Part shown: positions 14,495 through 27,959 of the stretch, in pieces
Layout of the letters: each line of letters begins with the position of its first letter
How positions within the stretch are numbered: position 1 is the first letter of the stretch
Assembly: GCF_002215215.1 (NCBI RefSeq)
Contig: NZ_CP018632.1
Coordinates: forward strand, 2,104,501 to 2,168,500
Length of the DNA: 64,000 nt
Source: Granulosicoccus antarcticus IMCC3135
GTDB lineage: Bacteria > Pseudomonadota > Gammaproteobacteria > Granulosicoccales > Granulosicoccaceae
Direction of reading: 5' to 3'
Program-made: the position numbers and the translations under genes
Notes under the pieces: model-generated
Told to the model about the DNA's origin: nothing
Databases searched by the model: none
The model's input: only the letters and a program-made list of their open reading frames with translations

Positions 14495-15709
14495 TTGGCA
14501 GGCACAACACTGCTATCTGCGGCTGTCGTCGCTTTTTCAGGGGGTGTACAGGCACAGTCCGAAATCCCCAAGGGGCTCGAATCGCTGTCCATCATCAAAT
14601 ATGCACGTTCTGCCAACAATCCATCCGGTGGTTATGGAGATATCAGGGAGATAGACCGAGAGAAACGCGAACCTGTGGATACCGCGAATCTGGACATGAG
14701 TCTGCCCAAATCGCAACGCGAGAAGCCGGAGGAGTACAAAGGTGAAAAAATACCTGACATCAATGATCTCAACGGCAAGAGTCAATTCGAGTTCTTTGAC
14801 ATTGAAAGTGGTCGTAGCTTTCAGTTCTCGATAGAGCGTAGTACATTGGCCAAGCTATCCCGACAGGTGGCTGATACAGCCAACGAGCACAACGGTGATC
14901 GCAAGCCGGCAACGAAGGATGAAATACGAGCTGAGTCCCGGTTTGACAAATCCTGGAGTTGGGCCAATGACAGTCGCAGCCGACGCGGGATACAAGATGG
15001 CTATTCTGATACCAATACGATCTATCAGAATCTTGCAAACTATGGTGGTTGTTCAGCCACGGTCCTGTCTGCCAATAGCGAACAAATGGTGGCTCTGACT
15101 GCGGCACATTGTATCTATCGACCAGGAAATCAGTATTCGTATTCCAACATTGAGCCTCGCAAGAATGGAGTGGCGTCACCTACCTGGGGAACATGGAGTC
15201 CGGTAGCTTTCGGGTTCTACCCCTCATTCATTGATAACGATTGTGAGGACAACTGGAACGGCAGTGTCTGCATTAAATACGACATTGCCCTGGTTATCGC
15301 AAGACCCGATGCCGGTGCAACGCCTCCCAGAGGTATGGGATGGGGATATCGCAATAAGACCTCCATCGATACGTTCAGCAAATACCGCCGCGGTTATCCC
15401 GGTTGTGGTGCAGGTCATAGTCCAATGCCTTGCTCCGGAGATTACCTTTATGGTGATGGACAGTTGAACCTGGGTAACTATGCCAATACCGATTCAGACA
15501 ATTGGTACCGTCGTGTCAAGTTCTCATCCGATCTGAATCCTGGAGACAGTGGGTCAGGCTTGTATTACTATCGAGATGGCAACCCGTATGTATTCGCGGT
15601 TACCTCTGCCGAAGATACTTGTTATACGGCCTGCTGGTACTCACGACCAAACCATGCTCGACGGATAACACCTGAGTGGTACGATTTCATCAACTCGGTT
15701 GTCTTCTGA
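14495..15709 (+). CDS. Trypsin-like serine protease; signal peptide interrupted by an in-frame stop
   Basis: From a TTG at 14495 the frame gives 404 residues: the tail of a signal peptide ending VQAQS, a propeptide-like segment, and a chymotrypsin-fold protease domain with the catalytic His in LTAAHC (near 206), Asp in YDIALVIA (near 267) and Ser in LNPGDSGSG (near 350). The only ATG with a ribosome site (AAGAGG) is at 14456, in the same frame, but codon 6 is TAA (14471-14473). Read through it, the N-terminus would be a normal signal peptide. So this is either a recent nonsense allele (CAA to TAA), a sequencing error, or a gene that restarts at TTG. The rest of the frame is intact. Confidence 0.7.
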   Translation: MAGTTLLSAAVVAFSGGVQAQSEIPKGLESLSIIKYARSANNPSGGYGDIREIDREKREPVDTANLDMSLPKSQREKPEEYKGEKIPDINDLNGKSQFEFFDIESGRSFQFSIERSTLAKLSRQVADTANEHNGDRKPATKDEIRAESRFDKSWSWANDSRSRRGIQDGYSDTNTIYQNLANYGGCSATVLSANSEQMVALTAAHCIYRPGNQYSYSNIEPRKNGVASPTWGTWSPVAFGFYPSFIDNDCEDNWNGSVCIKYDIALVIARPDAGATPPRGMGWGYRNKTSIDTFSKYRRGYPGCGAGHSPMPCSGDYLYGDGQLNLGNYANTDSDNWYRRVKFSSDLNPGDSGSGLYYYRDGNPYVFAVTSAEDTCYTACWYSRPNHARRITPEWYDFINSVVF

Positions 15710-15729
15710 AGCAGATTGACTAACTTAGT

Positions 15730-15766
15730 GCAGGTAAACCAGCATTGCCGGTTTACCTGCATTTTT
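15730..15766 (+). terminator. Rho-independent terminator between the two protease genes
   Basis: GCAGGTAAACC (15730-15740) pairs perfectly with GGTTTACCTGC (15750-15760), loop of nine, followed by ATTTTT. It ends transcription of the first protease gene. Confidence 0.85.
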
Positions 15767-15794
15767 CGTGGGGATTGTGATATCAACTGACACA

Positions 15795-16583
15795 ATGAAA
15801 ATGTCTTCAAACATCCATATTCACCCCAGTCAGAAACGTTTTTTTCAGATTCGTATCTGCCTGCAGCTGCTCGCAAGCTGCGCATTGTACTTACTGATAA
15901 CAACTATGAGTAAAGCAGGGGGCGAAAGTAGTCAATCATCCGCATTCCACTACGGGCTCGACAGTCAATTCACTACCCCGCATTGCGTAGCAACAAAACT
16001 TAAGTCATCAGCCAGCAGGGTTCGCTCGTTAGAACAGAAACCTGATGTGATGTCCCGGCAAGTTGTCCATGCCTTGACAGCGGCACATTGTTTTCGAAAT
16101 ACGGTTGAATCCATTAATATCGGTTGCCGTGATAGTTCAACCGTTGAAGCCCTGATCACGGCTTTTTATTGGCATCCGACACATGACGTCGTTCTCATGA
16201 AGCTGCTTGTCAATGAAGCATGCCTGGGCAAGGGGGTCTCATTAAGGCATCAAGAACTGGATAAACACCATCAGAATAAGCAACTTGTCATTCCAGGTAC
16301 AGTGCAACCACAGAGCATGACATTTGGAGAAAGCAGGGCATTCGAGCCAGCTACACCGTCCAGTGAGTTTGTCAGAGTTGCAGAAATTCTTTCGGTAGAT
16401 CAGGAAACCCTGAGACTGTCAGATCAGGTTGTCTGTCTCAAAGCAGGTGATTCAGGTTATCCATTGCTTATGAATGGTGAAATTGCAGGCATGTTAATTT
16501 CTGGACTGGAAGGGTGCCCAACTGAACAGATAGCCATACGCACCGATAGAATCGCTAATTGGATCAGCCGTCATATGGAGTAG
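15795..16583 (+). CDS. Second trypsin-like serine protease
   Basis: A 262-residue protein from the ATG at 15795 (GTG codons at 15768 and 15777 are alternatives; none has a strong ribosome site). A hydrophobic segment near residues 25-38 is a signal peptide or anchor. The triad is visible: His in ALTAAHCF, Asp in HDVVLMKL, Ser in KAGDSGYP. It is shorter and more divergent than the protease encoded just upstream; the pair may be an old tandem duplication. Separated from it by a strong terminator, so it needs its own promoter. Confidence 0.7.
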   Translation: MKMSSNIHIHPSQKRFFQIRICLQLLASCALYLLITTMSKAGGESSQSSAFHYGLDSQFTTPHCVATKLKSSASRVRSLEQKPDVMSRQVVHALTAAHCFRNTVESINIGCRDSSTVEALITAFYWHPTHDVVLMKLLVNEACLGKGVSLRHQELDKHHQNKQLVIPGTVQPQSMTFGESRAFEPATPSSEFVRVAEILSVDQETLRLSDQVVCLKAGDSGYPLLMNGEIAGMLISGLEGCPTEQIAIRTDRIANWISRHME

Positions 16584-17141: not shown

Positions 17142-17170
17142 TTGACAGGTACTACTTGGTGCTATTTACT
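17142..17170 (+). promoter_or_regulatory. Candidate sigma-70 promoter of the 17-28 kb operon
   Basis: TTGACA at 17142-17147 is a perfect -35 box; TATTTA at 17163-17168 or TTTACT at 17165-17170 can be the -10 box with 15-17 bp spacing. It lies about 35 bp before the first start codon. Confidence 0.45.
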
Positions 17171-17204
17171 GATTTTAATACCGTATTAAAATGGAAGAGA
17201 ATCT

Positions 17205-18200
17205 GTGGCGAAAATCGCGTTTGACGCGCAATCAGACTTGATTCCGGAATGCCGAATTGTGATTAATGGACTTGGCAGATCTGGTGGCGCTCGGTGGGTG
17301 AGTGCTTTACAACATGTCCGCGCGGGTAGCGATGATGAGCTCGCACGACTTCTATTTCAGGCGCCCTCGGTATTGGTCGATCAGATTGCCACGGAGGCAG
17401 GAACGCAACTCGTCGACGTCTTGTCTGAAGGTGGAATAGATGTCGAACTGCAACCAATTACTGCGCCTTTCGAACCAGGCTGCGGAGAGTTCGATATCGC
17501 CGTATTCGTTGAAGATCCATCAGCGCTTCCGTTAGCGGTCAATGAACTGGCTCACCTTCTCGGGGTCGGAGCGGAACACGCAGTGCAACTGCTTTCAGGA
17601 CAACCACCCATTGTCATGGGCAACGTTTCTTCTGCGACGGTTAATGCGCTGACTGAACGAGTTTCCGAACAACCGATCTCGGTCGTGTCATCCAGAACCG
17701 TGAAGGCCGTTTATGACGTCTACATGACTCCGGATACCGGTGCCACCGTTCGTCATCGAGTGGTCGGGCGCTTGCGAGGGCTGGGACTCAACGTTGATGA
17801 TCCGGCTGTACCAACGGCCGACGAAGGCATGGTCGTGCTCGGCCTCGATGCTGAACAAGCAAGAGAGATTTGGAATGCGGTCGGGCGCCGCACGAGTGGC
17901 GTCAAGATTGTTGATCGCGCATTCCAGCGTTATGACATTTTGCTGGAAGCATTGGACCCAAGCGCCGAGGCGATGGCGACTCTGGTGGAGTTGACAGGCA
18001 TGCCCGCCAGTCTGGCCCCCAAGGTGTTCGCTAATCTGCCGATTGTCGTGGCTCAAAATCAAACCCATGGCGAGATGACGTCAGCAATGCAGGCGTTGGG
18101 AGCAGTCGGCGCGGTAGCCGTATCCGAACTCACCACGTTTCGATCCAGCAAGCAGGGCAGCGCCTCTCCAAAATCAGCGCTGGCAAACGAGAGAACCTGA
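17205..18200 (+). CDS. Protein with L7/L12-C-terminal-domain-like modules
   Basis: A 331-residue protein without signal peptide or membrane segment; not a known named gene. At least two, perhaps three, stretches follow the pattern of the ribosomal protein L7/L12 C-terminal domain (helix, LxGM/VG, A-xxL, P-V-V, then GA-V): about residues 98-162 (ELAHLLGVGAEHAVQLLSGQ) and 245-312 (ATLVELTGMPASLAPKVFAN, then ALGAVGAVAVS), and less clearly residues 18-85. In the ribosome this fold docks translation GTPases; here it is more likely an oligomerisation or docking part. GTG start with GGAAGAGA upstream. First gene of the operon, 16 bp before the TPR gene. Confidence 0.6.
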   Translation: MAKIAFDAQSDLIPECRIVINGLGRSGGARWVSALQHVRAGSDDELARLLFQAPSVLVDQIATEAGTQLVDVLSEGGIDVELQPITAPFEPGCGEFDIAVFVEDPSALPLAVNELAHLLGVGAEHAVQLLSGQPPIVMGNVSSATVNALTERVSEQPISVVSSRTVKAVYDVYMTPDTGATVRHRVVGRLRGLGLNVDDPAVPTADEGMVVLGLDAEQAREIWNAVGRRTSGVKIVDRAFQRYDILLEALDPSAEAMATLVELTGMPASLAPKVFANLPIVVAQNQTHGEMTSAMQALGAVGAVAVSELTTFRSSKQGSASPKSALANERT

Positions 18201-18216
18201 TGGAGAAGACATTCAG

Positions 18217-18816
18217 ATGATTCCCGAGAGCCGCGTTGACAGCAATCCATCAGGCAGAGGACTGCACCCTAACATTGCTGAGTACGGCAAAGTGCTTGCA
18301 CTGCAAGGGGACCATGAGTCAGCGCTGATGCATTATAGAGAGGCGATGCGGCTAGCTGTCGACGAAGCAGCGCCAGAGGCGTTCTTTCGCCATTACCTCG
18401 AATGTTCGATGGAGTCCATCGAGATGCTTGGAGCATATGAGGACGTTATCGAGTACTGCGAACGCGTCGACCAGCACTACGATCAAGTCACACCGACTGA
18501 CGAGTTGCAGACCCGATTCATAAGTCTCGACCGAGCAACGAACTTTCAGCGAATGGGTAGTAACCTGCTCAAACTGGGCCGCTCCGAGGAGGCGCTCAGT
18601 GCCCTTGGCCAAGCCAATCAGCTAGCGCTCGAAAATGGCACAAACCTTCCGCTGGCCTCAGCCCTTATCGGCTGGCTGCAGCGCAGATTGACGGTCGACA
18701 CGAACCGAATACAGGCCGAACAACGACGGCTTGGGTACTTCGCCGTAACGCATGAAACGGTCGACCCCAAAAAGGCGGTGCCGTTGCCTGACACTCTAAC
18801 TAAACTTCGAAGGTGA
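18217..18816 (+). CDS. TPR-like helical protein
   Basis: A 199-residue soluble protein with tetratricopeptide-like helix pairs: YGKVLALQGDHESALMHYRE near residues 23-42, a second pair around 70-95, and GSNLLKLGRSEEALSALGQA near 112-131. TPRs bind partner proteins; here the partners are probably the other operon products. ATG with GGAGAAG upstream; six bases before the next gene. Confidence 0.7.
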   Translation: MIPESRVDSNPSGRGLHPNIAEYGKVLALQGDHESALMHYREAMRLAVDEAAPEAFFRHYLECSMESIEMLGAYEDVIEYCERVDQHYDQVTPTDELQTRFISLDRATNFQRMGSNLLKLGRSEEALSALGQANQLALENGTNLPLASALIGWLQRRLTVDTNRIQAEQRRLGYFAVTHETVDPKKAVPLPDTLTKLRR

Positions 18817-18822
18817 TAAGCA

Positions 18823-19368
18823 ATGGCTGATGCAGGCAAGACCCTCGCAAGTGCGCCGGTAAGCGAAATTATCAAGTCGATGGCGATGTCGATAGCTGAC
18901 GCCCAAGCCGCGCTAGACGCCGCTTCGCGCAAGACCGCAGTTGCGCTCGCCCAAGAAACGTTTACATTCAAAGATGCCAATGGTGACGACGTTGAGCGCA
19001 GCCTTTTGGCTCTTGGTTTCACCCCAACCTTCTACAGCTTTGTTGCTGTCGATCTTGAGTTAAGGCTGGAGACTCGCATCACAGAGTCCACTGACGTCGG
19101 CGGCGAAGTGACTGCCAAAGCCAATACCGAACAAACAGGAACCGCAGGGGGGACGGCAGGAGAAACTGGCGATGGCTCGGAGGCGGAGCCAGCGGGTGAG
19201 CCGCCAACACGGACGACGTCGATGGGCATGACGATGAGCGCTAATTTCCAGCGCAAGTTCGGCGTAGAAACCAGTGGTCATACCCAAGTTACCGCTCAGC
19301 TGGTCGCATTGCCCCCGCCAGCTGCGTTTATGGACTTCATTTCCGGCCTATCCGAGAATGGTAACTGA
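18823..19368 (+). CDS. Paralogue A of the operon's repeated family
   Basis: A 181-residue protein, the most divergent of seven related ones in this operon. It keeps the N-terminal helix (SIADAQAALDAAS, residues 23-35), the core LLALGFTPTFYSF (near 60-72) and a C-terminal LVALPPP. Between them is a low-complexity insert rich in T, G and E (about 98-130). No signal peptide. Function unknown. Two bases separate it from paralogue B. Confidence 0.65.
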   Translation: MADAGKTLASAPVSEIIKSMAMSIADAQAALDAASRKTAVALAQETFTFKDANGDDVERSLLALGFTPTFYSFVAVDLELRLETRITESTDVGGEVTAKANTEQTGTAGGTAGETGDGSEAEPAGEPPTRTTSMGMTMSANFQRKFGVETSGHTQVTAQLVALPPPAAFMDFISGLSENGN

Positions 19369-19370
19369 AC

Positions 19371-19799
19371 ATGGACGTCTCAATGTTGCAGAGTTCGCTT
19401 CCCCAATTGTTGCAATCACTGGGCACTTCAATTGCGGAAGCACAGTACGCGATGGACCGAACATCGGTCGACATCGCCTCTCGTATGGGTGAGACGATGA
19501 TCATCGTCGGTGACGGTGGAGAGCGTTCGTTATTGGAGCTCGGTTTTGTGCCCTCGTTCTATCACCTCTCCACTGCGACCATCGAAGCCCGGGTGGCCTT
19601 TAGCACCACCGAAACAACCGAGATTGGCGTATCCGCCTCAATCGGTGGCTCGTTCAAACTGTTCTCGGCGTCAGTCAACGCGTCGTACTCGAATAAATAC
19701 AGCTTTTCATCAGAAGGGGCAAGCACGCTCGTCGCCAACTTTGTTTCAGTTCCTGCTCCTGACGGACTGCGTGATTTGATGGCCGCCCAAACGTTGTAG
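19371..19799 (+). CDS. Paralogue B of the repeated family (shortest)
   Basis: A 142-residue protein with the family features: SIAEAQYAMDRTS near residues 20-32, LLELGFVPSFYHL near 54-66, then SNKYSFSSEGASTLVANFVS near 106-125 and VPAPDGL. The middle and tail are predicted beta strands. It lacks the longer insert and the LEERIRA end found in C, D and G, so it is the minimal form of the family. Function unknown. Confidence 0.68.
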   Translation: MDVSMLQSSLPQLLQSLGTSIAEAQYAMDRTSVDIASRMGETMIIVGDGGERSLLELGFVPSFYHLSTATIEARVAFSTTETTEIGVSASIGGSFKLFSASVNASYSNKYSFSSEGASTLVANFVSVPAPDGLRDLMAAQTL

Positions 19800-19809
19800 T
19801 TCAAAGGCG

Positions 19810-19821
19810 TGCGCGCGCACA
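19810..19821 (+). other. Palindrome inside the operon
   Basis: GTGCGCGCGCAC, a perfect 12-bp palindrome followed by ATTTTG, in the only larger gap (86 bp) in the first half of the operon. It could be a partial terminator or RNA-processing site that sets the ratio of upstream to downstream genes. Confidence 0.35.
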
Positions 19822-19885
19822 TTTTGTAAGCCAGCAAGTTTTGTAACGCCACAATTTCGTGACCAGCTAACCAAGGAGTATCCCG

Positions 19886-20515
19886 ATGGCTATGGACTCA
19901 GGCATAGGAGAAGCACTCTCCAATTTGCCGATAGGACAACTGATCAAGAACGTTGCGCTCGGCATAGCCGAGGGGCAGACCGCAGTCGATGTTGAGTCGA
20001 TCCGTACGGCCCAGATGATGAGCGGTTACGGGCCGAACAAGATTGATGGCGAAAAAATGCAAATGGAAGATTATCGGGTCGCTTTCGGTCGGGATGCAAA
20101 TGGTAAACCCGAGCTGGTCTCTATGATGGAACTTGGATTTACGCCGGTTTTCTACCAGTTCATCGACACGTTAATCGAAGTGAAGATGGCGATCACGGTT
20201 ACCCGCAACAACGACAATGTGGTCAAGAACAAGGGCACTGAAACCAGCGTCAGTGCGAACAGCAACCGGTACTTCGGATGGTTTAGATCCTCGTCGGTTA
20301 CGGTGCGCAGCACCCCTGTCGATGCAACCTATGCGAGCAAGTACAGCTACACAGCGGAAGGTTCAAGTCTGGTGCGTACCAAGATGGTGCCGGTGCCACC
20401 ACCAGCGATCCTGGAAGAGCGAATCCGGGCTGTAATTGCAGAGGAATCGATCAGAACTGGCCCAAACAAGGCGAAGCCAGCTGGCACGACTAACCTTCTC
20501 TCAGGAAGTAACTGA
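19886..20515 (+). CDS. Paralogue C of the repeated family
   Basis: A 209-residue protein with all family parts: GIAEGQTAVD near residues 28-37, MMELGFTPVFYQFIDT near 77-92, then after a variable segment KYSYTAEGSSLVRTKMVPVP near 151-170, and LEERIRAVIAEES. Closest to paralogue D. AAGGAG ribosome site before the ATG; one base separates its stop from the start of D. No signal peptide; function unknown. Confidence 0.7.
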   Translation: MAMDSGIGEALSNLPIGQLIKNVALGIAEGQTAVDVESIRTAQMMSGYGPNKIDGEKMQMEDYRVAFGRDANGKPELVSMMELGFTPVFYQFIDTLIEVKMAITVTRNNDNVVKNKGTETSVSANSNRYFGWFRSSSVTVRSTPVDATYASKYSYTAEGSSLVRTKMVPVPPPAILEERIRAVIAEESIRTGPNKAKPAGTTNLLSGSN

Positions 20516-20516
20516 T

Positions 20517-21050
20517 ATGGCCAGCATAGGACAGCAACTACTTGACGTACCGTTCGGCGAGATGGTCACTTCGCTGGCACTGTCGATCGCTGAGGCCCAG
20601 TATGAGTTGGACTTGGTCGGCGTCGAGATCGCGCAGATGATGGCGGGCGAAGAGGTCGTGCCTGACCCTGATGATCCAGAGAAAAAGATTGCAGTCACTG
20701 TCGACTTTGGCGACCAAAAGGGTCTGAGTCTGCTTGAGCTTGGGTTCACCCCGAGTTTCTATCAGTTCGTTGATACGGTGATTGAGGTCAAAGTCTCGAT
20801 CAACATGACGAGCTCTCAGGAGTTCAAGACAGCGAGTTCGACCAAGTCGGTCTCTGCCGGTGGAGTCTTCTTCGGCTTCGGTGGCACCGCGAAGGCAACG
20901 GCCACATCGGTCAGCGCAAGTTATGCGTCGAAGTATAGCTACTCAGCAGAAGGGTCGAGTCTTATCCGTACGAAGCTGGTCCCGGTTCCACCTCCCACCG
21001 TTCTGGAAGAGCGCATCCGAGCGCTACTGGCGTCCAGGGAGGAAGAATGA
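20517..21050 (+). CDS. Paralogue D of the repeated family
   Basis: A 177-residue protein. SIAEAQYELD near residues 22-31, LLELGFTPSFYQFVDT near 76-91, KYSYSAEGSSLIRTKLVPVP near 143-162, and the ending LEERIRALLASREEE. The ATG at 20517 (AGGAAG upstream) is chosen; an upstream ATG at 20436 would overlap paralogue C by 80 bases and adds no family sequence. Its stop overlaps the next start (ATGA). Confidence 0.72.
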   Translation: MASIGQQLLDVPFGEMVTSLALSIAEAQYELDLVGVEIAQMMAGEEVVPDPDDPEKKIAVTVDFGDQKGLSLLELGFTPSFYQFVDTVIEVKVSINMTSSQEFKTASSTKSVSAGGVFFGFGGTAKATATSVSASYASKYSYSAEGSSLIRTKLVPVPPPTVLEERIRALLASREEE

Positions 21051-21946
21051 CCCAGACTGGGCACCAGTATCGGACCTGGCAGGATCTGGCTGACGAGCCT
21101 GTCGAAATTGGTGGTAATTCAAGTACCACGGACCCCTGCGCGGTACCAATTGAACCGGCACCTCCTGCTCTTTCTGTCGCGCCTTCGGTATCGGCAGGTG
21201 GGATTATGGCCCCGGCCGGAATGCGGCTCGATGATTTGAACCTACCGGGCGAGCTCAATGAACTGCTGAGAGAATATCAGGCGCTCGAAGCAAAGATGCG
21301 CAATCTGGCCGGCGAAAGTTCTGCAGAGGAAATTGATAAAAGGGACGCGGCGCGATTTCCCATCAAGACACACACCGTTGAGTCTCGTATAGAGGATCGT
21401 CGTCTGGCTCGACACGACGAGGGCGCGAGTCTTCAGAAGAAGGCCGCTTTGGAAGAGGCGACGATCAAACAGCGTCTCGAGAGCAGGCGAGAAAATATGC
21501 GCCAGCACACCAGGCTGGCCGCGATCAGTGCTGGCAGAGAGCAGGAACAACAAGAGCATCTGGAGCGGGCCAAGGCTGTGAAACACGTGGTCGAGATGCG
21601 AGCTGCAACAACTGAGGGTGAACGTCGGGAAACTACTGCGCGCGAAGCCACGAATCGTTCTTTGCTGGCCGTCCAGCGCAAGCGACGTTTGGAACAGGCT
21701 CATATGGCTGAGACCGGTGAACGTGCTCGGGCAACGCTGGTGTCGCGTCGCAGCAAGGAACGTGACATCAACCGTCGCCGTGAGCTGATCGATAAACAGC
21801 AGACATCAGCAAGCGTTGAGAGGCGACGAGACGCACACAGAGACGAAGCCCGGCGGGATGCTGCTCGGGCCCGATTGATCGAACAACGCCGAGAGGCGAA
21901 ACAAGACGAAGCCGCACTCGACCGTCGTAGGAGCAACTGTGGCTGA
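21047..21946 (+). CDS. Charged long-helix protein
   Basis: A 299-residue protein. The first 80 residues are proline- and serine-rich; from about 85 to the end the sequence is almost only E, R, K, A, Q, D with no proline or glycine breaks of note, as in a coiled coil or single long alpha-helix, and is strongly arginine-rich. Such a part often serves as a rod, tether or scaffold. It overlaps paralogue D (ATGA) and paralogue E (8 bases), so it is firmly part of the operon. No homologue recognised. Confidence 0.65.
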   Translation: MTQTGHQYRTWQDLADEPVEIGGNSSTTDPCAVPIEPAPPALSVAPSVSAGGIMAPAGMRLDDLNLPGELNELLREYQALEAKMRNLAGESSAEEIDKRDAARFPIKTHTVESRIEDRRLARHDEGASLQKKAALEEATIKQRLESRRENMRQHTRLAAISAGREQEQQEHLERAKAVKHVVEMRAATTEGERRETTAREATNRSLLAVQRKRRLEQAHMAETGERARATLVSRRSKERDINRRRELIDKQQTSASVERRRDAHRDEARRDAARARLIEQRREAKQDEAALDRRRSNCG

Positions 21947-22610
21947 TAAAACCGAAGAGTTATTGACCGGCTCGGTAGATGAGTATCTTCTCAGCCTTGC
22001 GTGGAGTCTGCAGCAGGCTCAGCGCCAGCTTTCCCAACTCTCAGCACCGGGACCCACGGGAGAGTTTCCTGTCACCTATCAGATCCCGGAGATGGAATTC
22101 GAGCTGAAGATGTCGTTGGAGCTTCGTCAATCGTCTGTTATCGATGCGGCAGGTGGCGCAACGGCAGGCGCTAAAGTCCTGCGAGGTACCGTATTGAGCG
22201 GCTCGTCAAGTGACGCCAGCAAGTCGTTGGCGGCAAGCACCATCAAAGGTCGATTTGTGGCGGTGCCCAGCCGTGGGGGTAATCCGCCACCGGTGCTGAC
22301 TGTCACGATGACACGGCCCGGACGAACAAGTGTGCTGGGTCTGGCGGTGCGGGTGTCATCAGTCAGCGGAGAGCCACTTGCTGACGTGCCAGTGCACTTC
22401 AACGTGGACCGGGATCTGACCAATCGACTCAATACTCTGCCCGCATCGGAAGAGTCCCGGCCTATGGCTGGTGTGGTCAGAACCAATGCAGAAGGCGTTG
22501 CCGTTACCGAGGTTGAGGCTGCCGAAAAAGACTTTGAGAAGAGGATTGCCATCGTGATCGACGCGCTTGGAAAGACGGAGACCATCGTGTTCAAGGGTGG
22601 TGCATCGTGA
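21939..22610 (+). CDS. Paralogue E, family core plus Ig-like domain
   Basis: A 223-residue protein. Residues 1-105 are a reduced version of the repeated family (LSLAWSLQQAQRQL, then PVTYQIPEMEFELKMSLEL, then KGRFVAVPS). Residues about 110-220 form a bacterial Ig-like (Big_1 type) domain: VSSVSGEPLADVPVHFNVDR and later VVRTNAEGVAVTEVEA. GTG start inside the previous gene. GTGA overlap with the LamG gene. The fusion to an Ig-like domain suggests an outward-facing role within an assembly (inference). Confidence 0.6.
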   Translation: MADKTEELLTGSVDEYLLSLAWSLQQAQRQLSQLSAPGPTGEFPVTYQIPEMEFELKMSLELRQSSVIDAAGGATAGAKVLRGTVLSGSSSDASKSLAASTIKGRFVAVPSRGGNPPPVLTVTMTRPGRTSVLGLAVRVSSVSGEPLADVPVHFNVDRDLTNRLNTLPASEESRPMAGVVRTNAEGVAVTEVEAAEKDFEKRIAIVIDALGKTETIVFKGGAS

Positions 22611-24634
22611 GCGGAGCTCTCCACATTGGTGATGACAATCAGTGGGTGACTCTCGGCTCGGCTCCTCGGCTGGGGTTTGGCACGCAGGGATTCACGATTG
22701 AGATGTGGGTCAGGCTGGATGAGCTCAAGTCCAACTCAATCCATTTGCTTGGCAGCACGAACTTTACGTACCCGGACTCGTTCAACCTGCTGATAGGAAG
22801 CGACGGCAAGCCGTGGGTGGGGCACGAGTCCAACTATCTCAACGCTCGTAAACCGGTGACAGCAGGACACTGGTTTCATCTGGCTTACCGGTATGACGGA
22901 AGTGGTGATGGTCCCAATGGCGGCCAACTCCTGATCAATGGCGTCATCGATGTCTCCAGTAACTTTGAAATGAAAGGGCAGGTCAAAGCCGATCTCTTCC
23001 TCGGACCCGGACCTCTGGCCCTGGGCTCGGTGAGCGGAGGGTTTGACATCACGGAGCTACGGTTCTGGCCCGGTCCGCGTAGTGATGGCAAAATTCGCGA
23101 GCAGATGTTCTCCCGGTGGGATAGTCGGGACAGGGGGATTGCCGCTTACTGGCCGTTGGATAGTGAAAACCGGTTTGAAAGTCCGATGCAATCCGGAGTG
23201 GTGGTACCGTCCACCGAATTCGGCTTCATCGAGGACGATTCTGTTCCGGTGGATCTTGACCGAGACGCGGTAACGCAAGGATTACTCAAGGGGGAATCCT
23301 CGGTCACGCTTGATGAGAATCGCGACCTTATAGGTCTGGATATCTTTACTGCCGAGGTGTGGGTTTTTGGAGATCAGAAGCCAGATGAACTCTACAATTC
23401 TCCGGTACTGAGCCAGCACGGTGCCCCGACCGGTTGGGAGCTTCGAGCCGCAGCTGGGATGGCCGAATTCTTGATCACGATCAACGGCGAGCACCTGACT
23501 GTTGGCTGGAGTGCAGACCCGACGCCCGGATGGTTTCATGTGGCCGGCGTTTACGACAAATCACAGATTCGCCTGGTTATCAACGGTATCGTCGTGAGCA
23601 GACTGAGCGTTACGGGAGAACTTGCGCACTACGAGAGGCCTGTTACCGTCGGCCGGAATCGCAATTGGCCGGCACGAGCATTCCAGGGGGCGCTGGCTGA
23701 GGCCCGTATCTGGAAGACAGCCAGAACCGATGCCCAGATCTGGTCGCAGCTCTTCACTCGAGCTGGGGGAAATGAGCCGGGCCTCGTTGCCGTTCTGCCT
23801 CTCGATGATTGGCCGACGGGCAGTGTGCGTGATCTGGTATCCGAGACTTCCCACCCGGTGGACAACCCCCTGGCCAGTGTACGGCGGGCTCCGCCGCTTG
23901 AAGCCATCGCCGATGCAGACCCCGAAACGAATGAACCAACCGAAACGGAGCAGCTTGAGAATCTCCGGACCGAACGAATAGAGCTTCTCAGACGAGTTGA
24001 ACGCGCTGAGATCCTCCTGGGCGAAATGGACGAGCTTGAGGAGTTGGCTGAAAAGGGCCGTCAGGCGCAATCAGAGGTGCAAGAGCTCCGTACTCAGGTT
24101 GCAGAGCTTCAAAATGCTCAGCCCGATGAGATCACATCGCCCGATAGAGAATTGGAGCCCGGCGAGACCACGCTTCAGAGTTTGATCAACCAGACCAGGG
24201 CCCAGATCGAGGCGGCTAGAGTCGCGGTAAATCAGGGGGGTGGTGTCTATCGTCTTCGAGATGTCACAATGGATTTGCGGGTAATTCCTGCAGCTGGCGG
24301 CGAGACGGTGATTATCCCCGATCGTAAAGAGTTGGTTGATTTGTCAGGCGGTGAACTCAGCCACCTGCGCCTGGACTTTTCATCGACTGACATCGGCCAG
24401 GCCGAACCTGTTCTTGTCAAGGTTCCTGACGTGTCTGGCTACACGCAGGTGTTGGCCAGGCGCAAGCTCTCAGAGGTCGGCCTGCTCACAGAGGTCATGC
24501 TGGAAGCGCTTTCTGAAGACAGGAAGTCGCAGGCGCGTCGTGTTGTCGATCAGCTTCCCCAGGCTGGAACCGACGTGTCGCCGCAATCGACCGTCACGAT
24601 CTTTGTCGGCCGACTTGCAACGTCGAGCACATGA
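22607..24634 (+). CDS. LamG-LamG-coiled coil-PASTA protein without signal peptide
   Basis: A 675-residue protein. Two concanavalin-A-like LamG domains lie at about 1-170 and 205-410 (FTIEMWVRLDELK; FTAEVWVFGDQ; GWFHVAGVYDKSQIRLVING; AEARIWKTARTDAQIW). A coiled coil follows at about 445-510, and a PASTA domain at about 604-674 (VPDVSGYTQVLARRKLSEVG, then VVDQLPQAGTDV). LamG binds glycans or proteins and is normally exported; no signal peptide is present here, so the product is cytoplasmic or leaves by a non-Sec route. Coupled by GTGA to paralogue E. Confidence 0.75.
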   Translation: MSGALHIGDDNQWVTLGSAPRLGFGTQGFTIEMWVRLDELKSNSIHLLGSTNFTYPDSFNLLIGSDGKPWVGHESNYLNARKPVTAGHWFHLAYRYDGSGDGPNGGQLLINGVIDVSSNFEMKGQVKADLFLGPGPLALGSVSGGFDITELRFWPGPRSDGKIREQMFSRWDSRDRGIAAYWPLDSENRFESPMQSGVVVPSTEFGFIEDDSVPVDLDRDAVTQGLLKGESSVTLDENRDLIGLDIFTAEVWVFGDQKPDELYNSPVLSQHGAPTGWELRAAAGMAEFLITINGEHLTVGWSADPTPGWFHVAGVYDKSQIRLVINGIVVSRLSVTGELAHYERPVTVGRNRNWPARAFQGALAEARIWKTARTDAQIWSQLFTRAGGNEPGLVAVLPLDDWPTGSVRDLVSETSHPVDNPLASVRRAPPLEAIADADPETNEPTETEQLENLRTERIELLRRVERAEILLGEMDELEELAEKGRQAQSEVQELRTQVAELQNAQPDEITSPDRELEPGETTLQSLINQTRAQIEAARVAVNQGGGVYRLRDVTMDLRVIPAAGGETVIIPDRKELVDLSGGELSHLRLDFSSTDIGQAEPVLVKVPDVSGYTQVLARRKLSEVGLLTEVMLEALSEDRKSQARRVVDQLPQAGTDVSPQSTVTIFVGRLATSST

Positions 24635-24686
24635 TGAAACGCCGTTTTCACTCCCACCAATTAATCAACGAGTCGAGGGCAGTACC

Positions 24687-25298
24687 ATGGATGACCAAAC
24701 ACTCCCGCAACTGCTAGACGACGTTCCTGCTGCGCTGGGTGAGCTGATCGGAGCGGTTGGGCGAGGTGTCGCCGATGCGCAACAAGCTCTGGACCGATCG
24801 ACAATCGAACAGATCGCTCGAATCTACAGCGACCTTGATGACGACACACAGGCCCACCTCAGGGCGATCGGATATCAACCGACCTGGTACAAGATACCGG
24901 AAGCCACTGCAGAGTTGATGGTGACGTTAAGCGTTGCCGGTGGCGACGGGGTTCAGCATCGGTCGGATACCGGGGTGCGCCTCCACGCCACGCCAGTGGA
25001 CGCCAACTACGCAAACAAGTACAGCTTTAATCTGCAGGCGGCCAGCAAGGTGACGTTCAAGATCGTGCCCGTTCCGCCAACAGCGCAGGCCGAGGAAATA
25101 CGGGTGGTGCCACACCTTGATGGCAGAGCTTCGACCGAAGCTGCGCAGATTCTGGACCGTCTCGGAATTCGTCACAATCTTGATGATGACGCGGAAGGTG
25201 AGGTGGATTCGACTAGCCCGTCCGCCGGATCAATGCTCGGTCCCGATGATGTCCTCACGATCAAGACCCGAACCGCAAACGCTCCCGGAGCTAGTTGA
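24687..25298 (+). CDS. Paralogue F, family core plus PASTA-like tail
   Basis: A 203-residue protein from the ATG at 24687; the frame is open further up to 24336 but that part is antiphase to the LamG gene and is not used. Core features: VADAQQALDRST near residues 30-41, LRAIGYQPTWYKIPEA near 55-70, ANKYSFNLQAASKVTFKIVP near 111-130. Residues about 140-197 look like one PASTA domain (AAQILDRLGIRHNL, then SAGSMLGPDDVLTI). Domain tails of this kind normally bind peptidoglycan-like or penicillin-like ligands, but this protein has no export signal. Confidence 0.65.
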   Translation: MDDQTLPQLLDDVPAALGELIGAVGRGVADAQQALDRSTIEQIARIYSDLDDDTQAHLRAIGYQPTWYKIPEATAELMVTLSVAGGDGVQHRSDTGVRLHATPVDANYANKYSFNLQAASKVTFKIVPVPPTAQAEEIRVVPHLDGRASTEAAQILDRLGIRHNLDDDAEGEVDSTSPSAGSMLGPDDVLTIKTRTANAPGAS

Positions 25299-25299
25299 G

Positions 25300-26019
25300 A
25301 TGGCAAACCCCATTGGCATCGGTGACATCGATTTGAACCATACCTCAATGGCGGAGGTTATTCACAGTGTTGCGTTGGCCATCGCCCACGCCCAGTTTGA
25401 ACTTGACCGGTCAAGTATCGTGGCAGCGGCTGCCTTGGCTGGAGCCACGACGGATGGCGAAGCGGCGTCGGCCATGGTCCCCTTCGGTCGAGAAGTCAAC
25501 GCCGGTCAGCTTGAGCCCAGATACGTGTCCATGGTTGAGCTTGGCTTCGTGCCGACTTTTTACCAGTTCGTCGACACAGTCATCGATATGAAGTTGTCGA
25601 TCTCGTTGCGGCGAACCCGGTGGGATGGTGGACGGACCGGTCAAAAATACAGCAGCGGTACTCTTGGTGTCACCGCGAAACCGGTAGATGCCAACTTCTC
25701 ATCGACTTACAACTATCGAGCTGATCTTGCGTCTTCAGTTCGTACCAAGTTGGTGCCGATTCCTCCACCGCCTGCGCTAGAGGAGCGTATTAACGCCCAA
25801 TATGCTCGACCAGACCCTGTCGTTGCGCAGGGCCCCAACGGTCTTGTTGACCTCAATGCGGCTGACCAGTCAGAGCTCATCACACTCGAAGGAATTGGTA
25901 AGGCGTTAGCTGGTCGTATTGTCGATGCCCGCCCGTTTGACTCGCTTGATGAGCTTGAGGATATCAAGGGCATCGACGATCAGATCATAGAGGGTATCCG
26001 ACCCTCGTCCCGAGTTTGA
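25300..26019 (+). CDS. Paralogue G, family core plus helix-hairpin-helix tail
   Basis: A 239-residue protein; ATG at 25300, one base after the stop of F. Core: AIAHAQFELDRSS near residues 27-39, MVELGFVPTFYQFVDTVID near 80-98, VRTKLVPIPPPPALEERINA near 148-167. Residues about 184-235 (LVDLNAADQSELITLEGIGK, then FDSLDELEDIKGI) form a ComEA/T2SK-type helix-hairpin-helix pair, which usually binds DNA or mediates protein contacts. The fusion of this to the family core is unusual. Its stop overlaps the next start (TTGA). Confidence 0.68.
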   Translation: MANPIGIGDIDLNHTSMAEVIHSVALAIAHAQFELDRSSIVAAAALAGATTDGEAASAMVPFGREVNAGQLEPRYVSMVELGFVPTFYQFVDTVIDMKLSISLRRTRWDGGRTGQKYSSGTLGVTAKPVDANFSSTYNYRADLASSVRTKLVPIPPPPALEERINAQYARPDPVVAQGPNGLVDLNAADQSELITLEGIGKALAGRIVDARPFDSLDELEDIKGIDDQIIEGIRPSSRV

Positions 26020-27959
26020 CGCGGGATGCCCTTGTGCTTCGAACCAAGCGACAAGGAAGGCGAGTCAGAGAGGAGGCCAAGGAGCGACGTCTGCAACTTG
26101 TGGAATTCATTGCTAAAGCCAATTCGCTGATTACAGGTCAGGGAACGGTCTCGATTCTGACGGTTGCCCACGATTGGAACGGGCCTCTGGTTAACGTTGC
26201 ACCGCACTTCGTCGACGAACGGCGCGCGGTGGCGAGCCGACTAGTGAAAGAGCTTCGTAGCAAGCAACGGGAATGGCTTGGCCAGGTGAATCCGGAGGAC
26301 TTACAGGCACTGAAGGAGGCCATCACGCTCGTGCTAGTCAAGCCGGTTTTTGGACCGTTGATTCAAGTTCAGGGTGCTGGACCCAAGCCAGAGGCTGCGT
26401 TCGGTGCAGCTGGCCTCGATCTTGATCGAAAGACTCCACCTCAAGCTATCAACATCGGGTTTGAGATCGAATGTGGCGATTTCGAACTGGAAGGGCGACA
26501 TAAAACAGGCCCTGGTGACGCTGTCATGCGCCTCCTCATCAAGTGCATGATGGAACAACACCCGCAGCAGCGGGCCCAAGGATTCAGCGTACAGTCAGAC
26601 GGCGGGCATATTGAGCTTGTCAGTGATCCGCCTCGGCAGCCGCTCGATCCCGTCAAGACAGTCGCAGCGATGGCAAAGTATGTGGGTGATCTTCATACTC
26701 GCTTGCTGTCGCTCCAGAAGAGCACATCGATACGAAGTCGCGCGTGGCGACCTGCTCGGTCGGTGGTGCCTCCGTCCTACGATCTGCACAAGGTAGTCTT
26801 GAAGGATGGAAGCAGTTCCGGGCTTGAAGTGCGCTTCAAGGCCTCGGGTCTTGAGGGTAAGGAGATTCCGGGAATGTTCCACGTCACGACAGGCATTCAC
26901 CTGAGCGCAATACCATGGCTGTTTTCCAGTATTTCCGGACGACTACAGGATGTCCCGGATTTTCCACTGCCGGGCAGGGGGTTCTTGCATGATCGGGTGC
27001 GCAAGACAGTGCTGGACCAGTTGCATGAGCTGCGCAAGGCAGCGATTGCTCAGCCTCAGCGCTGGTTGATTTCTCCTCAATTCGAGGGACTCGCCTTCTT
27101 GATTCTCACCTACGTGGCAACAGCTCAACACCTTGTTCCTCAGCAGCACAGGGTGAAAGTGCTGAGTCCAAAGCAGCTCTTCCTCGTTCTGGCCAGAACA
27201 GATTTCGCGACGATGCTCAAATTGTGTCCGGAATTCACCAGGCTCGGAACAGGTAGTAGCTCCCGCCGACTATTGAAAGCCTATCGAGAGCTGTTGCTAA
27301 GTGTCATGGCGTCAGGCGACACCAGGCTTTTCATAAGTCCGTTCGGGCGTACCGTACACCCGAATCAACTTGCTATCGCGGACCCTTCCGATCTTGATGT
27401 TCACGAGCTGCAAATGACCCCCAAACAATGGCTGAAGGAGCTATTCAAGTTGTCAGGCCCGGTTGACATCTTGACTCCACAATATCAGAGCAAACTTGCG
27501 AACGAGCTGCCGAAAGATCTGTTTCGAGGAATGGGCGAACTTGGAGCCAAGGTCGATCAAATTCCCGGACCCGAATCCAATACGCCGGTTTCTGCTCCAA
27601 TCTTCGAACTGCGTCAACTCACGATTAGTAATAAGGATAATTCTAAGTGGAAGGCGTTCGCCGAACATCTTGTGGGTGTTGTCTCGGAGCTTAATTGCCC
27701 GGCATACGAATCGGACATTAAATCGGCGGGCGAGGAGCTCGAATGGCTTCGTCTTGCAGGCAGGCTGCGAGTCCTGAACCCTGGGCAAAATAGCTCGGTA
27801 GTGCGTCCCACCAAGGCTGAAGAATTGACCGTCGATCTGAAGTGTGCGGAATACAGTCATCGGATGAGCGAGGCGACAATGCGCGCGGATCTCTGGACTT
27901 TACTTGATCAGGCGAGATCACACATCGAAGCTCAACCACGCGCCAGGAAGAAAAATTAG
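26016..27959 (+). CDS. Large protein with amidoligase-like motifs
   Basis: A 647-residue soluble protein, last gene of the operon. IGFEIECGDFEL (near residues 146-157), SDGGHIELVSDP (near 194-205) and FHVTTGIHLS (near 288-297) match, in order, the core of the glutamine-synthetase-fold amidoligases: the GxExE strand, the D-G-x-x-E(I/L)VS-P strand and the H-V-(H/T)-x-G strand. Known members of that superfamily form amide bonds on peptides or small molecules using ATP. The rest is helical and unassigned. Start uncertain: TTG at 26016 overlaps the previous stop; GTG at 26034 is an alternative. The assignment rests on three motifs only. Confidence 0.5.
   Translation: MTRDALVLRTKRQGRRVREEAKERRLQLVEFIAKANSLITGQGTVSILTVAHDWNGPLVNVAPHFVDERRAVASRLVKELRSKQREWLGQVNPEDLQALKEAITLVLVKPVFGPLIQVQGAGPKPEAAFGAAGLDLDRKTPPQAINIGFEIECGDFELEGRHKTGPGDAVMRLLIKCMMEQHPQQRAQGFSVQSDGGHIELVSDPPRQPLDPVKTVAAMAKYVGDLHTRLLSLQKSTSIRSRAWRPARSVVPPSYDLHKVVLKDGSSSGLEVRFKASGLEGKEIPGMFHVTTGIHLSAIPWLFSSISGRLQDVPDFPLPGRGFLHDRVRKTVLDQLHELRKAAIAQPQRWLISPQFEGLAFLILTYVATAQHLVPQQHRVKVLSPKQLFLVLARTDFATMLKLCPEFTRLGTGSSSRRLLKAYRELLLSVMASGDTRLFISPFGRTVHPNQLAIADPSDLDVHELQMTPKQWLKELFKLSGPVDILTPQYQSKLANELPKDLFRGMGELGAKVDQIPGPESNTPVSAPIFELRQLTISNKDNSKWKAFAEHLVGVVSELNCPAYESDIKSAGEELEWLRLAGRLRVLNPGQNSSVVRPTKAEELTVDLKCAEYSHRMSEATMRADLWTLLDQARSHIEAQPRARKKN

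Follow-up and report, generated by a model that had tools for sequence, protein, structure and literature searches.

Tailocins and extracellular contractile injection systems are the described systems closest to the locus reported here, a cluster of twelve genes (g1–g12) on the + strand of Granulosicoccus antarcticus IMCC3135 at 17205–27959. As in those systems, the locus is a chromosomal structural operon whose proteins are signal-less and carry envelope-binding domains, apparent lysis genes lie beside at least one copy of the operon, and the genes further downstream are variable. The differences concern the machinery itself: no tube, sheath or spike family was found in the proteins scanned, the operon contains no AAA+ gene, and its core is another paralogue family, here called P. 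Coordinates refer to the window, the whole stretch of 64,000 nucleotides that was analysed, which corresponds to positions 2104501–2168500 of the single contig of the 7.78 Mb genome.

The operon is conserved in other bacteria. One scan of genome contigs with g5, g6 and g11 yielded 133 places encoding a relative, and the best 80 were kept for locus counts (single-sequence search, E ≤ 1e-3). In 58 of these 80 loci the entire core is present on one strand in a single order, g1-g2-P-P-P-P-(g7)-g8-(g9)-g10, and the operon is therefore more than a chance arrangement. The remaining loci are partial (18, of which 13 are cut by a contig end) or rearranged (L042, L066, L070 and L085). The initial annotation, made from the letters alone, had proposed an undescribed signal-less multi-protein operon built on paralogues, to be abandoned if several of its members clearly matched a phage tail, injection system or gas vesicle set, or if the genes did not co-occur elsewhere. 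Neither was found: among the ten proteins given to PHROGs only g9 had matches below E 0.1, co-occurrence in the neighbourhood survey was strong, and the operon proved conserved and unnamed. We consider the chances even that it makes a hetero-oligomeric particle that has no visible homology to phage tails and would act outside the cell after lysis.

Gene layout and domain content

The genes are closely packed, the spacings from g1 to g12 (refined starts) being 16, 6, 2, 86, 1, −4, −8, −4, 52, 1 and −4 bp. Nine of the eleven junctions are tight (−8 to +16 bp), with g4–g5 (86 bp) and g9–g10 (52 bp) as the exceptions. The initial annotation had the coordinates, the strand and the mostly overlapping or 1–16 bp spacing right. 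Its count of eleven genes is corrected here to 12, the number to which its own list adds up. It also reported no signal peptide or membrane segment, and none is evident in any of g1–g12: no 19-residue window exceeds 1.45 on the Kyte–Doolittle (KD) scale in the 12 proteins, by a hydropathy test as opposed to a signal-peptide predictor such as SignalP.

All 12 proteins were scanned with Pfam, and ten of them (all but g2 and g11) also with NCBIfam, PADLOC and PHROGs. No Pfam family scored above its cut-off in g1, g3–g8 or g12. The first protein, g1 (17205–18200), consists of four tandem modules resembling the C-terminal domain (CTD) of L7/L12. Its profile matches solved L7/L12 (1ctf) at E 1.2e-6, and the modelled module matches the L7/L12 CTD in Foldseek (E 0.009, probability 1.00, template modelling (TM) score 0.84–0.86 by target length). 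The fold is thus that of the L7/L12 CTD (and of ClpS), but g1 has four such modules in tandem and belongs to a non-ribosomal operon, and the N-terminal part of L7/L12 is absent from the matched parts. The next protein, g2 (18217–18816), is a TPR protein with a match (E 3e-6) under Pfam's cut-off. A charged long helix or coiled coil is encoded by g7 (21047–21946), which is fast-evolving and has no Pfam match. The g9 protein (22607–24634) contains two LamG domains (Pfam E 4e-33), a coiled coil and PASTA. The L7/L12-like, TPR and LamG-PASTA proteins named in the initial annotation are recognisable in g1, g2 and g9.

In the three other databases the matches of g9 fall in its PASTA, coiled-coil and LamG parts. 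Among the PHROGs hit by the LamG part are one labelled virion structural protein (E 2.8e-9) and another labelled baseplate wedge subunit (E 2.9e-4). For the remaining nine proteins, NCBIfam, PADLOC and PHROGs gave nothing below E 0.1, which agrees with the earlier view that no phage or injection-system set is present. Pfam detected no tube, sheath or baseplate homologue in the 12 proteins, and PHROGs offered only the LamG matches of g9 among its ten. Gas vesicle (Gvp) families were absent at E ≤ 1 from the Pfam scans of all 12.

The last gene, g12 (26016–27959), overlaps the stop of g11 by 4 bp and encodes an accessory orphan of 647 amino acids (aa). It had been taken for an amidoligase-like protein, an assignment that is not supported. 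No Amidoligase_2 (PF12224) match was found in the Pfam scan or in its own genome, and comparison with eight true PF12224 proteins gave 0.2% in hhalign (g12 being entered as a single sequence) and no HMMER match. Relatives of g12 are missing from the 80 loci, 56 other genomes, plasmids and viral contigs.

The P-family and its predicted fold

The P-family members are g3 (18823–19368), g4 (19371–19799), g5 (19886–20515), g6 (20517–21050), g8 (21939–22610), g10 (24687–25298) and g11 (25300–26019). All of these except g8 are mutually similar at E ≤ 5e-9. The divergent g8, which has a probable Ig-like C-terminal domain, has no pairwise match to the others and is joined to them by profile comparison, using families built from related loci, at 95–98% probability (98% with the g4 family, E 4e-14). 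The seven paralogues seen in the initial annotation are upheld in this way, six of them pairwise and g8 by profile only. Seven copies were found in the source genome, all within the operon. The same comparison places g1, g2 and g7 outside the family (0.2–0.3%), and g9 aligns with g10 at 97% over a stretch that includes the PASTA common to both.

The P core is covered by no Pfam family, and none in NCBIfam, PADLOC or PHROGs covers it in the members that were scanned. Additional domains are attached to it in several positions. Pfam detects PASTA at the C-terminus of g10, a helix-hairpin-helix tail in g11 (an additional paralogue, accessory by position) and a Big_1 match at E 0.18 in g8. Among 99 P proteins scanned, 18 carry PASTA, 6 OmpA and 6 Big_1 at E ≤ 0.1. 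In many relatives g3 is a version of ~560–700 aa, some with an OmpA domain.

A paralogue tree was built from 421 of the 468 P sequences, and 71 rows without a positional label were set aside for the purity count. Across phyla, the sequences group by position in clades that are almost pure: g4 in 62 of 65 rows, g5 in 61 of 65, g6 in 64 of 65 and g10 in 64 of 65. The g8 clade holds 24 of 25 rows with low support (0.41), and the best g3 clade is less pure (44 of 64). Of the window's paralogues, g4, g6, g8 and g10 were placed within their own clades, and g11 within the g5 clade.

DUF2589 (PF11655), a family of unknown function, is a plausible distant relative of the P-family, judging by sequence comparison. 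Its best score was 16.1 bits (g10) against a gathering threshold of 23 bits, and a single one of the 99 P relatives matched it at E ≤ 0.1. In hhalign the two families aligned at 54%, with a score of 40 over 35 columns; column shuffles (n = 20) reached at most 14.7. By eye, DUF2589 proteins resemble P proteins in being often tandem, in length and motif order, and in the Ig-like tails of some, but the four neighbourhood stretches inspected by eye do not contain the g1–g10 set. DUF2589 proteins (L127–L139), often in tandem, occur in 6 of 50 carrier genomes, and in the three comparable genomes (G454, G456, G459) they lie on contigs other than those of the P genes.

The g6 protein is predicted to fold as two helices with a long beta-hairpin (~30 residues in each strand) between them (predicted local distance difference test, pLDDT, 72.7). 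At the tip of the hairpin the pLDDT falls below 50, and the model has no significant match among solved structures (best Foldseek E 0.18, TM about 0.2). Pore stems and flagellar LP- and MS-ring proteins head the list of weak Foldseek rows. Binary-toxin pore stems and the flagellar LP and MS rings share with the model a long beta-hairpin next to helical parts, but none matches g6 significantly in structure or sequence. In each of the five families tested, strand amphipathicity exceeds the 95th percentile of shuffles.

The amphipathic strands, the pore stems heading the weak rows and the hairpin tips, which by eye are glycine-rich and often aromatic in the g6 alignment, would suit a pore-forming or translocation complex: the long hairpins would form a barrel within a target membrane, through which the downstream protein would pass. 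The same amphipathicity, however, also fits a soluble ring. The lack of a significant structural match, the low pLDDT of the g6 tip and a hairpin region that by eye is much shorter in the g8 consensus also speak against such a complex, which we regard as quite improbable.

Distribution and neighbouring genes

Among the 80 loci, relatives of g1 are present in 72, of g2 in 73, of the P-family in 80, of g8 in 72, of g9 in 43 and of g7 in 18. In the loci with exactly six paralogues (n = 64), the g6–g8 interval contains a gene in 46 and the g8–g10 interval in 54. A g11-like paralogue after g10 is also found in L053, L067 and the rearranged L042 and L085. P genes are confined to one contig in 19 of the 20 carrier genomes examined. 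The other one, G462, an Oceanospirillales metagenome-assembled genome (MAG), has two operon copies (L144 on G462:C45, and L062), and its bin could combine two genomes. One Sphaerotilus plasmid (L145, 11995–14425) carries a reduced version lacking g1 and g2, in which two P genes are accompanied by genes for a short protein and a coiled-coil protein; all are annotated 'hypothetical'.

A g6 tree was made with the window and 64 of the 80 loci, the 16 without exactly six paralogues being dropped. Nine phyla are named in it, and record titles add SAR324 and Planctomycetota. The phyla are intermixed in places; for example, one clade of seven contains five Halomonas rows, one Gemmatimonadota row and one Latescibacterota row. 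The last two are MAGs which may be mis-binned, and phylum changes in the tree are no proof of transfer. Within the source phylum only the window's genome among 398 carries the cluster, which is rare in any one group, and the operon is absent from 26 congeners. As judged from the mixing of phyla in the g6 tree and this absence, the operon has likely spread by horizontal transfer.

Proteins downstream of the core were scanned in 13 loci, which are not a random sample because spacing and inspection of the sequences guided their choice. Peptidoglycan-degrading or -binding domains were detected in some. Two Amidase_2 proteins, one just under cut-off, follow the core in L014, an Amidase_2 in L044 and an Amidase_2 + SH3 protein in L062. 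An M74 + PG_binding_1 protein and a second protein with PG_binding_1 are found in L023, and two PG_binding_1 proteins, one under cut-off, in L080. In L067 (Pleionea sediminis) a GH108 endolysin and then a GTA_holin_3TM (15156–16096) start 16 bp after the last paralogue. By eye, these peptidoglycan-degrading or -binding proteins start without an evident signal peptide. A second PASTA protein follows the core in L069. Downstream proteins of L013, L018, L053 and L085 had no family above its cut-off, and those of L046 and L057 appear to come from unrelated host genes. Downstream of the core, the Neptuniibacter and Amphritea loci (L010–L021 except L011 and L014) each encode a large protein that contains 1–4 hydrophobic segments and in 9 of 10 is placed behind a small one. 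In 68 loci the sequence extends 1 kb or more past the last recognised core gene, and 28 of these have a same-strand gene within 100 bp (own gene selection).

The endolysin and holin of L067 would also suit a phage tail, tailocin or contractile injection system that has diverged strongly. The PHROGs matched by the LamG part of g9 point the same way, as does a tail-fibre-like repeat protein (recognised by eye, with no Pfam match) directly after the P genes of Desulfonema magnum (L085, 11815–12645). The weak structural rows include the phage P68 portal and tail (E 0.27) and lower collar proteins, and an unnamed viral protein, A0A516MP19, gives a full-length fit to the g6 model (E 1.9e-4, TM 0.39, 17% identity). 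Against this, tube, sheath and other tail profiles are missing from the other nine of the ten proteins given to PHROGs. A search with g6 gave no sequence relative in 50,697 phage records, and none was confirmed in IMG/VR, which was searched with two patterns. A diverged tail appears very improbable.

Upstream of the operon, a 19-base palindrome with one odd centre base (17173–17191) ends 13 bp before the g1 start. It is expected 0 times in shuffles and is the sole such site in the genome at up to 3 mismatches. Its uniqueness and its position just before g1 suggest a dedicated regulator, for which it would be a possible operator. A promoter-like match at 17165–17192 overlaps it; such matches are no more frequent here than chance predicts (9 found, 6.1 expected). 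Two trypsin-like serine protease genes, one under the Pfam cut-off, lie directly upstream at 14495–16583 and have no relatives in the 80 loci.

The proposed particle and its release

The particle would be built chiefly from the six conserved paralogues (g3, g4, g5, g6, g8 and g10), with hairpins placed side by side to form stacked rings or a barrel-like tube. Such an assembly is a guess, because the g6 model has no significant solved match and a poorly modelled tip. The g1 and g2 proteins may be cytoplasmic assembly adaptors, and g7 could be a rod or ruler. The g9 and g10 proteins, as well as g3 in relatives, would display LamG, Ig, PASTA and OmpA domains gripping glycans or peptidoglycan. Release from the producer by lysis is suggested by the lack of an evident export signal, by the wall-binding domains and by the adjacent endolysin and holin in L067. 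Once released, the particle would engage another cell's envelope and might deliver the protein encoded by the variable downstream gene. In the window this position is occupied by the extra paralogue g11 and the orphan g12. The initial annotation had suggested a self-assembling particle with a modifying enzyme. Of this, the particle is retained as the most likely interpretation, its assembly being inferred, and the enzyme is dropped (g12 has no Amidoligase_2 match and was found in 0 of 80 loci).

Several observations weigh against a lysis-released particle, besides the two limits of the g6 model. Peptidoglycan-degrading or -binding domains were found in only 6 of the 13 non-randomly picked loci, and in 40 of the 68 loci no same-strand gene follows the core within 100 bp. 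No recognised lysis gene is present within the window's operon, though release could depend on lysis genes at other sites in the genome. None of 70 upstream regions contains an exact LexA box. In the paralogue tree, neither g3 nor g5 of the window groups with the best clade of its type. The PASTA, OmpA and LamG domains may bind something else here.

The same hairpin paralogues could instead form a purely intracellular structure (a scaffold, compartment or filament) in which extracellular-type domains are reused for contacts within the cell. The absence of evident signal peptides or membrane segments in g1–g12 is consistent with this, as are the cytoplasmic appearance of g1 and g2 and the fact that in most loci no lysis gene is seen beside the core. 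However, PASTA and OmpA in core proteins make little sense in the cytoplasm, and neither do the downstream peptidoglycan hydrolases of some loci, accompanied once by a holin. We consider an intracellular structure unlikely, and clearly less so than a diverged tail or a pore.

No published description of the operon or of a particle was found in a narrow search of open-licence papers. Since, in addition, no Pfam family covers the P core, the system is rated as categorically new, as far as tested, with the mechanism evenly balanced. A ten-gene module in near-invariant order, spread over nine named phyla and centred on paralogues without a Pfam family, points to a multi-protein machine. The most specific version of the proposal remains doubtful: a phage-tail-independent class of nanomachine with six hairpin paralogues in a tube or barrel, released by programmed lysis, docking on another cell's wall through PASTA, OmpA or LamG, and carrying exchangeable cargo (peptidoglycan hydrolases or membrane-active proteins). 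Predictions drawn from the operon are testable in cultured carriers, which include Amphritea, Neptuniibacter, Caulobacter and Halomonas. If the operon does make a particle released by lysis, it would represent an independent solution to the task that tailocins and injection systems perform.

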